Assembly: GCF_022869865.1 (NCBI RefSeq)
Contig: NZ_CP094984.1
Coordinates: 2,170,001-2,234,000 of the forward strand
DNA: 64,000 nt
Origin: Arthrobacter zhangbolii
Lineage (GTDB): Bacteria; Actinomycetota; Actinomycetes; Actinomycetales; Micrococcaceae
Direction: 5' to 3'
This document shows positions 36,209 to 40,600 of the stretch, piece by piece. How positions within the stretch are numbered: the first letter of the stretch is position 1; every line of letters begins with the position of its first letter. The notes beneath the pieces are model-generated. The model ran no database searches. It was not told the DNA's origin and saw nothing but the letters and a program-made list of their open reading frames with translations. The position numbers and the translations under genes were made by a program.

Positions 36209-37153
36209 CTAGGCCCGCGGATGTGCCTGGCTGTAGCTTTGCCGCAGCCGGTCCACGGAGACATGCGTGTACAGCTGTGTGGTTGCCAGCGAGGAATGGC
36301 CCAGGATTTCCTGCACTGCGCGCAGGTCCGCGCCACCGTCCAGGAGATGTGTGGCCGCCGAGTGGCGCAGTGCATGCGGACCCGTGGCGGAGGTGTCCGG
36401 CAGGGCCTCCAGCAGTTCGGCGACGACGCCGCGGACCTGCCGCTGGTCCACCCGGCGTCCGCGCTTCCCGAGGAACAAGGCCGGACCGCTTTCGGGAACG
36501 GCCAGTGCCGGGCGTCCCCGGCGCAGCCAATCGTCCACGGCAAGGGCAGCCGGCAAACCGTAGGGCACCGTGCGCTCCTTGTTGCCTTTGCCCAGGACCC
36601 GCAGTGTCCTGCGATCGGGGTCCAGGTCATCGATGTCCAGGCCGGACAGCTCTCCCACACGGACTCCGGTGGCGTAGAGCAGTTCCACCATGGCCCGGTC
36701 CCTGAGGGCAACAGGCTCCCCTTCGGCAGCCGCTGCCTGCATGGTCTTGAACAGTTCCTCCACCTGGCCGCTCCGCAGCACACCGGGAAGGGTTTTTTCC
36801 TTCTTTGGCGCCCGAAGCCGCAGCGCAGGATTCTCGCTGATCAGTTCTTCGCGCAGCGCCCAGTTGGCAAAGCTGCGGGCCGTGGCTGCCCGCCGGGCCA
36901 GGGTGGAACGTGCCTGGCCGCTGCTGCTCAGTTCCCCCAGCCACCCACGCAGAACACTCAGGTCCAAATCCTTGAGCGCAACAATCCCTGACCCCAGCGC
37001 GAAGTCCAGAAGCTGGGTGACGTCCGATTCATAGGCCCGGACCGTGTGTTCGGACCGCCCCCGTTCCGACGTCAGGTACCGGCAGAAGCCCTCAAGCGCT
37101 GACCGGAATTCTGCCGGCCACGGCACGGTGTCTGCGGTTCCCTTGGTTCTCAC
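36209..37153 (-). CDS. xerC: tyrosine recombinase XerC
   Basis: A site-specific recombinase of 314 residues that resolves chromosome dimers at dif together with XerD. The N-terminal SAM-like core-binding domain covers residues 15-105. The catalytic set is complete: R165 (ATGVRVGEL), K192 (GKGNKERTVP), H260 and R263 (HALRHSAATHLL), H286 (LGHSSLATT) and Y295 (LYTHVS). It is co-oriented with dprA and comM, a conserved actinobacterial arrangement, so it is the housekeeping enzyme and not a phage integrase. Confidence 0.94.
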   Translation of the reverse strand: MRTKGTADTVPWPAEFRSALEGFCRYLTSERGRSEHTVRAYESDVTQLLDFALGSGIVALKDLDLSVLRGWLGELSSSGQARSTLARRAATARSFANWALREELISENPALRLRAPKKEKTLPGVLRSGQVEELFKTMQAAAAEGEPVALRDRAMVELLYATGVRVGELSGLDIDDLDPDRRTLRVLGKGNKERTVPYGLPAALAVDDWLRRGRPALAVPESGPALFLGKRGRRVDQRQVRGVVAELLEALPDTSATGPHALRHSAATHLLDGGADLRAVQEILGHSSLATTQLYTHVSVDRLRQSYSQAHPRA

Positions 37154-37215: not shown

Positions 37216-37743
37216 CTAGGCAGGCACTTTGTCCGTGTGACTGCAGGATCGTCGGAGTGCCTCGGTGCCGGGTGACTGTTCGAGCTCCAGAAGATACTGT
37301 TTCGCTTCCAGCCCGCCGGAATATCCCGTCAGTGCTCCCCGGGAACCGAGAACTCTGTGCGTCGGTACAACGATGTTGAGCGGATTGCGGGACAACGCCG
37401 CCCCTACGCTGCGCGCCTTGGCTGCATCTCCCAAGCCCAGTGCCAGCGATTTATAAGTGGCGGTTGAGCCGTAGGTAATGCTTCCCACCCGCTCCCAGAC
37501 GCTGCGCTGGAAGTCAGTGCCCCTGGGAGCAACGCGCACTGTGAAGCAGCATCGCCTGCCGTCGAAGTACTCCGCCAGTTGCCGCTCCACGTCTTCAAAG
37601 CCCTGCTCAGCTGCCAGGCCGTAGGGTGTACCCGCTCCGGTCAGTTCAGTCGGCGGGCCCAGCCTCAACGCGGAGAGGACACCGTCGGTCGCGACGAGGC
37701 TAAGCACCCCGACGGGCGAAGTAATGATCTTGTGAGTCATCAT
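37216..37743 (-). CDS. Ogt/MGMT-family protein with Thr at the acceptor-cysteine position
   Basis: A 175-residue homologue of O6-alkylguanine-DNA alkyltransferases. The N-terminal RNase H-like domain and the DNA-binding domain are both present: FQRSVWERVGSITYGSTATYKSLA, the Arg finger region ARSVGAALSRNP and the C-terminal TGYSGGLEAKQYLLELE. The invariant acceptor motif PCHR reads PTHR, with T128 encoded by ACG, so it cannot carry out the normal suicide transfer. It may act like alkyltransferase-like proteins, which bind O6-alkylguanine and recruit repair and usually have Trp or Ala there. The start is one of two adjacent ATGs (37743/37740) after AAGGAAG. Confidence 0.85.
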   Translation of the reverse strand: MMTHKIITSPVGVLSLVATDGVLSALRLGPPTELTGAGTPYGLAAEQGFEDVERQLAEYFDGRRCCFTVRVAPRGTDFQRSVWERVGSITYGSTATYKSLALGLGDAAKARSVGAALSRNPLNIVVPTHRVLGSRGALTGYSGGLEAKQYLLELEQSPGTEALRRSCSHTDKVPA

Positions 37744-37805
37744 GATGGGTTCTTCCTTTTTTGGTTGGGACGGGTCGGACAACAAGGATGGGACGGGCTG
37801 AATCC

Positions 37806-39059
37806 CTAGCGTTTACCGCGGCGCCACCCGTCGGGTCCGGCACGGATTGCGAGGCCTTCCAGTTCCAGCCTGGCCAGCCCTGCACGCACTCCCGCCACCG
37901 GCAGCCCGGCCACCGAGGCGAGTTTGTCGATGGAGGTGTCGCTGCGTACGGGAAGGGCGTCCAGAAGGAGGAGATCTTCGACTGCCAAACCATCGTGGTC
38001 TGATCTCTTCTCCCGGGCCCGTGCGGCCGACCCGGGCCCGGACTGCGATGCGGATTCCACAGCTTGGGCCACCTCGGGTACTTCCTGCGTCAGCGGCCCG
38101 GCCAGCTCGGCGACTTCCTGGGCATCAGTTACGCAGACGGCGCTGCCGTCACGCAGCAACCGGTGGCAGCCGGCGGAGTTGGCTGAGTACACCGATCCGG
38201 GAACCGCCCCGACCTCCCGTCCCAATTCTGCCGCGTGATGTGCGGTGTTCAGTGCCCCGGAACGCCACCGTGCCTCGACCACCACTGTCACCGCACTCAG
38301 TGCGGCGATGATGCGGTTCCGCTGCAGGAACCTCCACCGTGTCGGTGCTGACCCGGGCGGTACCTCCGACAGCAGCAGCCCGTGTTCCGCAATTGCACGG
38401 AGCAGGTCTTCGTTGCCCGCCGGATAGAACCGGTCCGCACCGCAGGCCATTACCGCGATGGTAGATATCCCGGAGCCGGCTGCCTCCGGAAGTGTTGCGG
38501 CGAGCGCAGCACGGTGTGCCTGGGCATCAATGCCGTAGGCGCCTCCTGAAACAACGGTGTATCCCCGGCTGGCCAAACCCGCCGAGAGATCCCCAGTGAT
38601 GGACAGGCCGTAGCCCGTGGCGTCCCGGGATCCGACAAGAGCCACCGTACGTTTCATATCGGGGAGCCCGCCCGCCAGCTGTCCCCGGACCCACAGGCAC
38701 AGCGGCATCCCGAGCTCCAGATGGGACAGCGCCTCAGGCCAACGCGGGTCCTCCGGGATGAGCAGCTCACCACCCAGCCGCCTGATGGTTTCCAGATCTC
38801 TGTCAGGAGCCAGATCAGCAACCCGCGGACGCCAGCGTTTCAGTCCCTCTGCGAGGGCGTATCCCTTTCCGGCCACGCCCACTGAGGTCAGGATGCCGGC
38901 GGTTTTGTGTATGAGCGCTGAGGAAACCTGCCGTCCCCCGGTGGCTATCTGCAACGCCTGCTCCGGTCCGGCTGCAGACACCAGGGCAAGACCCACCATG
39001 TCCGAAGGTTCGAACAATCTGGACAGTGCGGCGCGGGCACGGAGAAGGTCGACACTCAT
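37806..39059 (-). CDS. dprA: DNA-processing protein DprA
   Basis: Loads RecA onto incoming single-stranded DNA during transformation. The 417-residue protein has an N-terminal helical/SAM-like region and the Rossmann-like core with VALVGSRDATGYG, VVSGGAYGIDAQAHRAAL, MACGADRFYP, HGLLLSEVPPG and RFLQRNRIIAALS. A C-terminal winged-helix (DLLLLDALPVRSDTSIDKLASVAGL) completes the long form. The ATG overlaps the comM stop (ATGA), so the two are translationally coupled. Confidence 0.95.
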   Translation of the reverse strand: MSVDLLRARAALSRLFEPSDMVGLALVSAAGPEQALQIATGGRQVSSALIHKTAGILTSVGVAGKGYALAEGLKRWRPRVADLAPDRDLETIRRLGGELLIPEDPRWPEALSHLELGMPLCLWVRGQLAGGLPDMKRTVALVGSRDATGYGLSITGDLSAGLASRGYTVVSGGAYGIDAQAHRAALAATLPEAAGSGISTIAVMACGADRFYPAGNEDLLRAIAEHGLLLSEVPPGSAPTRWRFLQRNRIIAALSAVTVVVEARWRSGALNTAHHAAELGREVGAVPGSVYSANSAGCHRLLRDGSAVCVTDAQEVAELAGPLTQEVPEVAQAVESASQSGPGSAARAREKRSDHDGLAVEDLLLLDALPVRSDTSIDKLASVAGLPVAGVRAGLARLELEGLAIRAGPDGWRRGKR

Positions 39060-40600
39060 GCCGCAGCCCCCTGGGTCCGGAAGCCCAACGCCTGACCGAC
39101 GTCGTCGGCGTCCGGGGTGCCATGACCGGCGAGGTCTGCGATGGTCCAGGCGACGCGGAGTACACGGTCATAGCCGCGCGCCGTCAGCAGCTGCCGCTCC
39201 ATGGCCCGGTCCAGGGCGGCGGTAGCTTTGGGCCGGGGACGCAGCGCGTCCCGGAGCAGCCCGCCGGGAACCTCGGCGTTCGTTTCGCAGTTCAACGGCC
39301 TCAGCCGTTCCTTTTGGAGGTGCCTGGCCCTGTGTACCCGCTCCGCAACAGTTGAGCTTGTTTCCGGTGTCTCAGTGGAAAAGTAATCGCCCAGCGCAAC
39401 CCTCCGCACGCTGAGCTGCAGGTCTACGCGGTCGAGCAGCGGACCGGAGAGACGGCTAAAGTACCGTCGCCGCTGCTGCGGGGTGCAGGTACATTCGATG
39501 CCTTTCCCCGTCGCCAAACCACACGGGCAGGGATTCGCTGCCAGTATCAGCTGGAAACGGGCAGGGTATACGGCAGTGCCGGCGGCCCTGTGCAGCACGA
39601 GCTGCCCGCTTTCCAACGGCTGACGCAATCCGTCCAATACCCGTCGCTCGTATTCAGGTGCCTCATCCAGGAAAAGCACACCCCTGTGGGCCCGGGACGC
39701 TGCGCCGGGGCGGGGAATGCCCGAACCGCCTCCAATCACTGCAGCAGTGGACGCCGTGTGATGCGGGCTTTGGAACGGCGGCCGGCGCAGCAACTCACGG
39801 CACGGGCGTCCCTGCCAGGCCAGTGAATGAATTGCGGTCACTTCCATCGCCTGATCGTCGGGCAGGTCCGGGAGGATACCGGGCAGCCGCTCGGCCAGCA
39901 TGGTTTTCCCCGCTCCCGGGGGTCCGGTCATCAGAAGATGGTGAGCGCCGGCGGCCGCAACCTCGATGGCGAACCGTGCCTCCTGTTGTCCGGACACATC
40001 GGAAAGATCCGGTACCGCTGGCACTCCCGGGTCCTCTTCCGCTTCGGCGCCGGCCCCGCCGGCGACCGGAGCGGGGAATGCCAGCAGTTCCGGGTCAGCT
40101 CCCAGGCCGGCAGCGACCTGTGCCAGGGAGGAGCAGCCCCGCACCCGGGCGGAGGGAACCAGTGCCGCTTCCGCTGCGTTCTCCTCGGCCACGACGAAAT
40201 CCGTATACCCGGCGGCTACCGCCGCCATCACGGCCGGAAGGACGCCGCGGATCGGCCGCAATCTGCTGTCGAGTCCCAGTTCTGCAAGAAAAACGCACCT
40301 TCCGGGGCTGCGGAGCGCACCGCCGGCGCACAGTGCGGCCACGGCTATGGCCAGATCGAAACCTGATCCGTGTTTTGGGACGTCCGCGGGCATAAGGTTC
40401 ACCGTGATACGGCGCCTGCTCAACGGCAATCCGGCATTCTTCGCGGCAGACTTCACCCGGTCGCGGGACTCGTTCAGCGACGCATCCGGCAGGCCGAGCA
40501 GAATAAACGAAGGGAGGGACTGGCCGATGTCCGCCTCGACTTCCACCATCCTGCCCTGGAGACCCACGAGTCCCACGCCATAGGTGCGGCCCAGACTCAT
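39056..40600 (-). CDS. comM: YifB/ComM-type Mg-chelatase-like AAA+ ATPase
   Basis: A 514-residue hexameric helicase-like ATPase; ComM promotes branch migration in natural transformation. The N-terminal Lon-like domain has ADIGQSLPSFILLGLPDASLNESRDRV. The Walker A is GPPGAGKT (226-233) and the Walker B is GVLFLDEAPEY. CPCG and CTCTPQQRRRYFSRLSGPLLDRVDL are followed by the C-terminal lid domain. It is part of the comM-dprA pair conserved in actinobacteria whether or not they are naturally competent. Confidence 0.94.
   Translation of the reverse strand: MSLGRTYGVGLVGLQGRMVEVEADIGQSLPSFILLGLPDASLNESRDRVKSAAKNAGLPLSRRRITVNLMPADVPKHGSGFDLAIAVAALCAGGALRSPGRCVFLAELGLDSRLRPIRGVLPAVMAAVAAGYTDFVVAEENAAEAALVPSARVRGCSSLAQVAAGLGADPELLAFPAPVAGGAGAEAEEDPGVPAVPDLSDVSGQQEARFAIEVAAAGAHHLLMTGPPGAGKTMLAERLPGILPDLPDDQAMEVTAIHSLAWQGRPCRELLRRPPFQSPHHTASTAAVIGGGSGIPRPGAASRAHRGVLFLDEAPEYERRVLDGLRQPLESGQLVLHRAAGTAVYPARFQLILAANPCPCGLATGKGIECTCTPQQRRRYFSRLSGPLLDRVDLQLSVRRVALGDYFSTETPETSSTVAERVHRARHLQKERLRPLNCETNAEVPGGLLRDALRPRPKATAALDRAMERQLLTARGYDRVLRVAWTIADLAGHGTPDADDVGQALGFRTQGAAA

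Follow-up and report, generated by a model that had tools for sequence, protein, structure and literature searches.

O6-Alkylguanine-DNA alkyltransferases (Ogt/MGMT/AGT) combine an N-terminal PF02870 domain with a PF01035 domain that carries the acceptor cysteine within a PCHR motif. According to a review, this cysteine is activated by a glutamate in Ogt (PMC10779285). The acceptor-less family members described in the same review are short alkyltransferase-like (ATL) proteins; they have no N-terminal domain, mostly carry Trp at the acceptor position, and their Asn hinge is missing, having turned into a capping loop (PMC10779285). The acceptor has also been replaced in the laboratory. Human AGT C145S is reported to show no detectable transfer and still to bind DNA (PMC4150771), and SsOGT C119A has been crystallised on DNA containing O6-methylguanine (PMC4605297). 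Here we analyze a gene, labeled ogtT, found in a stretch of 64,000 nucleotides (the window) of the Arthrobacter zhangbolii genome (contig NZ_CP094984.1, positions 2,170,001 to 2,234,000). It codes for a two-domain Ogt homolog with Thr at the acceptor position and belongs to a lineage located beside dprA in three genera of the family Micrococcaceae, which very probably does not act as a classical transferase.

An Ogt homolog without the acceptor cysteine

The open reading frame (ORF) of ogtT occupies positions 37216–37743 of the minus strand, from the ATG start (37741–37743) to the TAG stop (37216–37218), and codes for 175 residues (...NIVVPTHRVLGSRGALTGYSGG...). Both domains that define the Ogt/MGMT superfamily score above their Pfam cut-offs (PF01035, 95.9 bits; PF02870, 25.8 bits), and the N-terminal domain also appears in the predicted structure. 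The protein even matches TIGR00589, the NCBI model of the cysteine S-methyltransferase superfamily, with a score of 95.1 (cut-off 46.4). However, PTHR replaces PCHR, so that the acceptor position is taken by Thr128 (codon ACG). Direct reading thus agrees with the initial annotation in both coordinates and letters. Its description of a full-length two-domain protein next to dprA is likewise correct, as both domains are present and dprA lies directly upstream.

The PTHR gene stands beside dprA in all 29 Arthrobacter genomes examined, and xerC is visible on the opposite side in 28 of them (not in L017). Three Thr codons (ACC, ACG and ACT) are in use at the acceptor position. The ratio of nonsynonymous to synonymous divergence (dN/dS, or omega; NG86 estimates) of ogtT is 0.035–0.106 in 13 of the 16 chosen Arthrobacter pairs (dS ≥ 0.15); the remaining three pairs (dS ≤ 0.03) gave 0, 0.265 and 0.354. 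The corresponding values in the same pairs are 0.069–0.338 for dprA and 0–0.097 for xerC (15 pairs). Since Thr is conserved in relatives and dN/dS is low, ogtT appears to be, on the whole, a maintained gene. A sequencing error, already thought unlikely in the initial annotation, or a pseudogene is ruled out on these grounds, and so is a Thr limited to this strain. A side observation concerns Arthrobacter sp. ATA002 (L031/L045), where the Ogt gene seems to be out of frame at the N-terminus and dprA matches in two pieces.

To see how rare the Thr form is, we searched 84,980 species, each represented by a single genome, for PTHR in the Ogt context. The pattern recovers 29 of the 29 known loci, detects this form of the motif only, and may miss records of the window's own genome. 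It matched 19 stretches: 16 in Arthrobacter (A. gandavensis, A. koreensis, A. citreus and A. luteolus among the named matches), one in an Ogt-like protein from a Planctomycetota metagenome-assembled genome, and two without any Ogt homolog found. The Thr version had been called unusual; Thr is one of two acceptor-position variants within a broader dprA-linked lineage, the other members of which have Gly. The Planctomycetota protein (L035:1708-1971) reads PTHRV, and no dprA or xerC match was found near it within the 8 kb locus. There were no matches to the pattern among viral contigs, and a phage origin of ogtT was counted out.

Paralogs in the same genomes

Two other PF01035 proteins are present in the window genome, namely a PCHR Ogt and a short ATL in which Trp takes the acceptor position. 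The first of these is the true Ogt elsewhere in the genome that had been proposed as support for a non-catalytic role of ogtT. It sits between sigma-factor-like and AlkB-like genes (L001:809-2584; names read from ORFs), as in an alkylation-response cluster. A PCHR paralog occurs in all 29 Arthrobacter genomes (the match in G010 is short and weak) and in 10 of the 10 g32 genomes scanned (g32 and g26 denote the two other genera with dprA-linked copies). The ATL loci read in these two genera, four in g32 and one in g26, all have Trp. In G010 the short ATL-type protein (L109) reads PLHR, with Leu where the other 28 Arthrobacter proteins have Trp. The Arthrobacter dprA-linked protein is therefore a third PF01035 member and not a substitute: because the genome has a short Trp ATL, there is no vacant ATL role for the Thr protein simply to occupy, and the idea that it replaces an ATL or Ogt lost from the genome is ruled out, both being present.

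Glycine at the acceptor position in two further genera

We then examined dprA loci in 35 other genomes of the family. dprA was matched in 34 of them, and an Ogt homolog lies between dprA and xerC in two (G053 and G059), both times with PGHR. No Ogt homolog was found in the retrieved flanks of the other dprA loci, one of which (L138) has a different gene there; in most of the other genera examined, dprA and xerC thus occur without an ogt-type gene between them. Both genomes of genus g26 (G053 and G099) have PGHR in the dprA-xerC gap. In genus g32 a match is present in 36 of 38 genomes, including all 34 with completeness of ≥ 90% and contamination of ≤ 5%; the two genomes without the gene are 68% and 83% complete. 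All 36 g32 loci were read. Each of them has PGHR and adjoins dprA, with xerC visible in 35, and all four Gly codons are used at the acceptor position across 30 of these loci. Taken together, the acceptor Cys is absent from all 67 dprA-linked copies read, with Thr in 29 of 29 and Gly in 38 of 38.

Profile searches of 297 genomes of the order and 394 of the class ranked the known dprA-linked copies at the top. No further acceptor-less genera were found among the best 30 (order) and best 15 (class) loci, and all other loci read have Cys. The best match has Cys in all 50 unlinked loci (46 distinct places), although in some of them it may be a neighboring paralog. The motif is PCHR in 48 of these loci and in L253, and GCHR in L152; the class search yielded eleven more unlinked loci, all with PCHR.

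Phylogenetic analysis

In a tree of 53 rows with the acceptor position masked, the dprA-linked proteins, Thr and Gly forms alike, make up one clade relative to the Cys proteins (support 99/98). The clade is also recovered with g26 as the only Gly genus (98/94, 38 rows). With the acceptor unmasked, the Thr proteins by themselves are supported at 95/92 (59 rows). The 38-row and 53-row trees include 12 of the 29 Thr rows, and the latter includes 14 of the 30 g32 rows. Within the clade, the grouping of g26 with Arthrobacter is weak (82/50 in the 53-row tree), and g26 is on a long branch. A single move into the dprA-xerC gap followed by a single loss of the acceptor would be the simplest history, but separate losses are possible.

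Retained and lost residues

Residues were compared in an alignment of 61 dprA-linked proteins (29 Thr, 30 from g32 and 2 from g26). Six g32 loci read later are not part of it. L112 and L130, two additional PF01035 loci (in G004 a fragment with PCHR, in G009 a weak match), were excluded from the counts. His129, Arg130, Glu155 and Arg111 are present in 61 of 61 proteins, Tyr97 in 60, Tyr141 in 59 and Asn120 in 58. The statement that the other active-site residues are kept is consequently well founded, Tyr97, Arg111, His129, Arg130 and Glu155 occurring in 60–61 of 61. In Arthrobacter and g32 taken together, Tyr97, Arg111, His129, Arg130, Tyr141 and Glu155 are invariant (59/59), and Asn120 is lost in a single, Arthrobacter, copy. 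The position following Tyr97 is characteristic of the lineage: it is Lys or Arg in 60 of 61 dprA-linked proteins, whereas all 22 standalone Cys Ogts compared have Gly or Ala there. In the same 22 standalone proteins of the order (rows from L053-L072, L131 and L132), the Arg-finger position is Arg in 10 and Gln in 12.

We also asked whether an acceptor Cys might have been relocated. No Cys at all is present in 18 of the 30 g32 proteins (extended ORFs with guessed starts), and the other 12 have one to five. The matched stretch is Cys-free in 19 of the 30 and in all six further g32 loci. Arthrobacter copies do have characteristic cysteines: Cys65 (29/29), Cys66 (28/29) and, in the LRxxC tail, Cys167 (28/29). 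Columns 65 and 66 have no Cys in any of the 32 other dprA-linked proteins or the 29 Cys-Ogt rows, and the tail Cys is found in no other row. The sole Arthrobacter copy without Cys66 (G010) is also the sole copy without the tail Cys. The Cys-Cys pair and the LRxxC tail could represent a metal or disulphide site. As these cysteines are Arthrobacter-only and 18 of 30 g32 proteins are Cys-free, a relocated acceptor common to the lineage is ruled out.

Organization of the locus

The gene order in the window is yraN-comM-dprA-ogt-xerC, all on one strand (Table 1). A consensus scan of the ogtT region found no sigma-70-type promoter match, but promoters of actinobacteria may well deviate from this consensus. 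One weak terminator-like match occurs just before ogtT, with three such matches in the region versus 2.0 expected by chance.

Table 1. Coordinates of ogtT, its functional positions and neighboring genes in the window
Feature	Position	Strand	Basis or remark
ogtT, two-domain Ogt homolog with PTHR	37216..37743	minus	domain scores; 29/29 genus genomes
Acceptor-position codon ACG, Thr128	37360..37362	minus	Cys in Ogt; Trp in most ATLs; Gly in g26 and g32
His129 codon, active-site His	37357..37359	minus	kept in 61/61 aligned dprA-linked proteins
Glu155 codon	37279..37281	minus	matched by alignment to the Cys-activating Glu of Ogt; 61/61
Arg111 codon, Arg finger	37411..37413	minus	61/61 dprA-linked
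Tyr97-Lys98 codons, base-flipping Tyr and lineage-typical basic residue	37450..37455	minus	alignment
Cys65-Cys66 codons, Arthrobacter-only pair	37546..37551	minus	alignment
C-terminal tail, LRxxC, usually final VPA, Arthrobacter-only	37219..37278	minus	alignment
Likely ribosome-binding site AAGGAAG	37752..37758	minus	read directly
dprA, directly upstream of ogtT	37806..39059	minus	named by reading the ORF and by synteny
xerC, directly downstream of ogtT	36209..37153	minus	named by reading the ORF and by synteny
comM/yifB-type ATPase gene, upstream of dprA	39056..40600	minus	syntenic in relatives

Possible function and alternative explanations

The loss of Cys-based transfer in dprA-linked proteins is strongly supported by their sequences. 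Transfer to the usual Cys, and to any Cys in the Cys-free g32 proteins, is excluded on sequence grounds. Retention of the gene at the same spot in three related genera suggests damage recognition rather than repair. We favor, with a probability of about 0.6, the reading that the dprA-linked paralogs bind and flag O6-alkylguanine without transferring the alkyl group, in effect as a 'long ATL'. A standalone catalytic Ogt would have been copied into the dprA-xerC gap in a common ancestor of three or more genera of the same family and would have lost its acceptor Cys, in the simplest case through a single event on their shared stem; the position would since have been Gly in two genera and Thr in Arthrobacter. 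With the helix-turn-helix, the Tyr that flips the base, the Arg finger and the base pocket retained, the protein would bind DNA and flip out a guanine that bears an O6-alkyl group (or some other modification), which it would hold while leaving the alkyl group in place. The AGT C145S and SsOGT C119A precedents make lesion binding and flipping without transfer the most likely remaining activity. We infer that the bound site would be marked for another repair pathway, most likely excision repair; this hand-over is proposed by analogy with ATLs as presented in the review (PMC10779285), with the difference that the N-terminal domain is retained.

Several observations weigh against this reading. Both g26 copies lack Asn120 and Tyr141, and one also lacks Tyr97, because of which the g26 pocket may no longer hold the lesion. 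The g32 gene evolves faster than dprA (omega 0.17–0.61 versus 0.08–0.23 in the 25 lowest-dS of 117 pairs). Furthermore, since all 29 Arthrobacter genomes already have an ATL-type protein (28 with Trp and one with Leu), there would have to be a separate niche for a second sensor.

The same loss of Asn120 and Tyr141 in g26 would fit a protein that has turned into a generic DNA binder or a partner of the comM-dprA-xerC cluster (with its roles in natural transformation, RecA loading and dimer resolution) and in which lesion recognition has fallen into disuse. The position of all 67 copies read beside dprA and the basic residue 98 (60/61) also speak for it. However, the active-site residues invariant in Arthrobacter and g32 would not be needed for pure DNA binding, and linkage may be mere inertia given that most other genera examined have dprA-xerC but not the gene; we regard this explanation as rather unlikely. 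That lack of the gene elsewhere is also the reason why linkage alone proves nothing, even if the locus suggests a link to DprA. A more specific idea, in which the protein is a lesion reader of the DprA/ComM cluster that checks transformation or recombination DNA for O6-alkylguanine, leaves the lesion unrepaired and steers the DNA via DprA to excision, rejection or RecA loading, is speculative and on present evidence doubtful. If it is true, no other protein with the alkyltransferase fold is known to us to have been linked to natural transformation before, and none appeared among the papers listed by our literature search.

Continued alkyl transfer through another acceptor, either Thr128 or the Arthrobacter Cys65, Cys66 or Cys167, seems very improbable. 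It could account for the universal retention of His129 and Glu155 and for the conserved cysteines gained in Arthrobacter, where a genus-specific gain of an acceptor is still possible. On the other hand, the Gly found in all 38 copies from g26 and g32 offers no side chain to which the group could pass, 18 of 30 g32 proteins are entirely Cys-free, and the Cys-to-Ser change is reported to abolish detectable transfer by human AGT (PMC4150771). Finally, a decaying duplicate or sequencing artefact is hardly credible. The Cys paralog could make ogtT dispensable and the ATA002 locus does look damaged, but the gene is present in 29/29 Arthrobacter and 36/38 g32 genomes, omega is low in the 13 more diverged Arthrobacter pairs, and three Thr and four Gly codons are found at the acceptor site. 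Binding and flagging of the lesion without transfer thus remains our preferred reading.

Comparison with known systems

The two-domain, acceptor-less, dprA-linked protein is a variant of the alkyltransferase family that is conserved and that we did not find in the literature searched: the titles and abstract openings listed revealed neither a full-length Ogt with Thr or Gly at the acceptor position nor a dprA-linked Ogt. A full two-domain Ogt lineage has thus been retained without its acceptor in three genera, and an Arthrobacter cell has three PF01035 proteins (a Cys Ogt, a short ATL and the dprA-linked protein). The lineage represents a natural test of the benefit of lesion binding without transfer. 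Because the window protein still matches the NCBI cysteine-methyltransferase model, it, and probably its relatives too, would be misnamed as enzymes.

In comparison with Ogt/MGMT/AGT proteins, the dprA-linked proteins are distinguished by the missing acceptor Cys, the shared dprA-xerC locus and the basic residue after the base-flipping Tyr (60/61). Like E. coli ATL and S. pombe Atl1, they have the acceptor replaced and keep DNA-binding and base-flipping residues, in g26 only in part. Unlike ATLs, as characterized in the review (PMC10779285), they keep the N-terminal domain (PF02870), have Thr or Gly instead of the usual Trp, and retain the Asn in 58 of 61 proteins. The same site is altered in the laboratory mutants hAGT C145A/S and SsOGT C119A, which are reported to be inactive yet to bind DNA; in the dprA-linked proteins, unlike these mutants, the change has become fixed naturally, in a gene lineage of its own.
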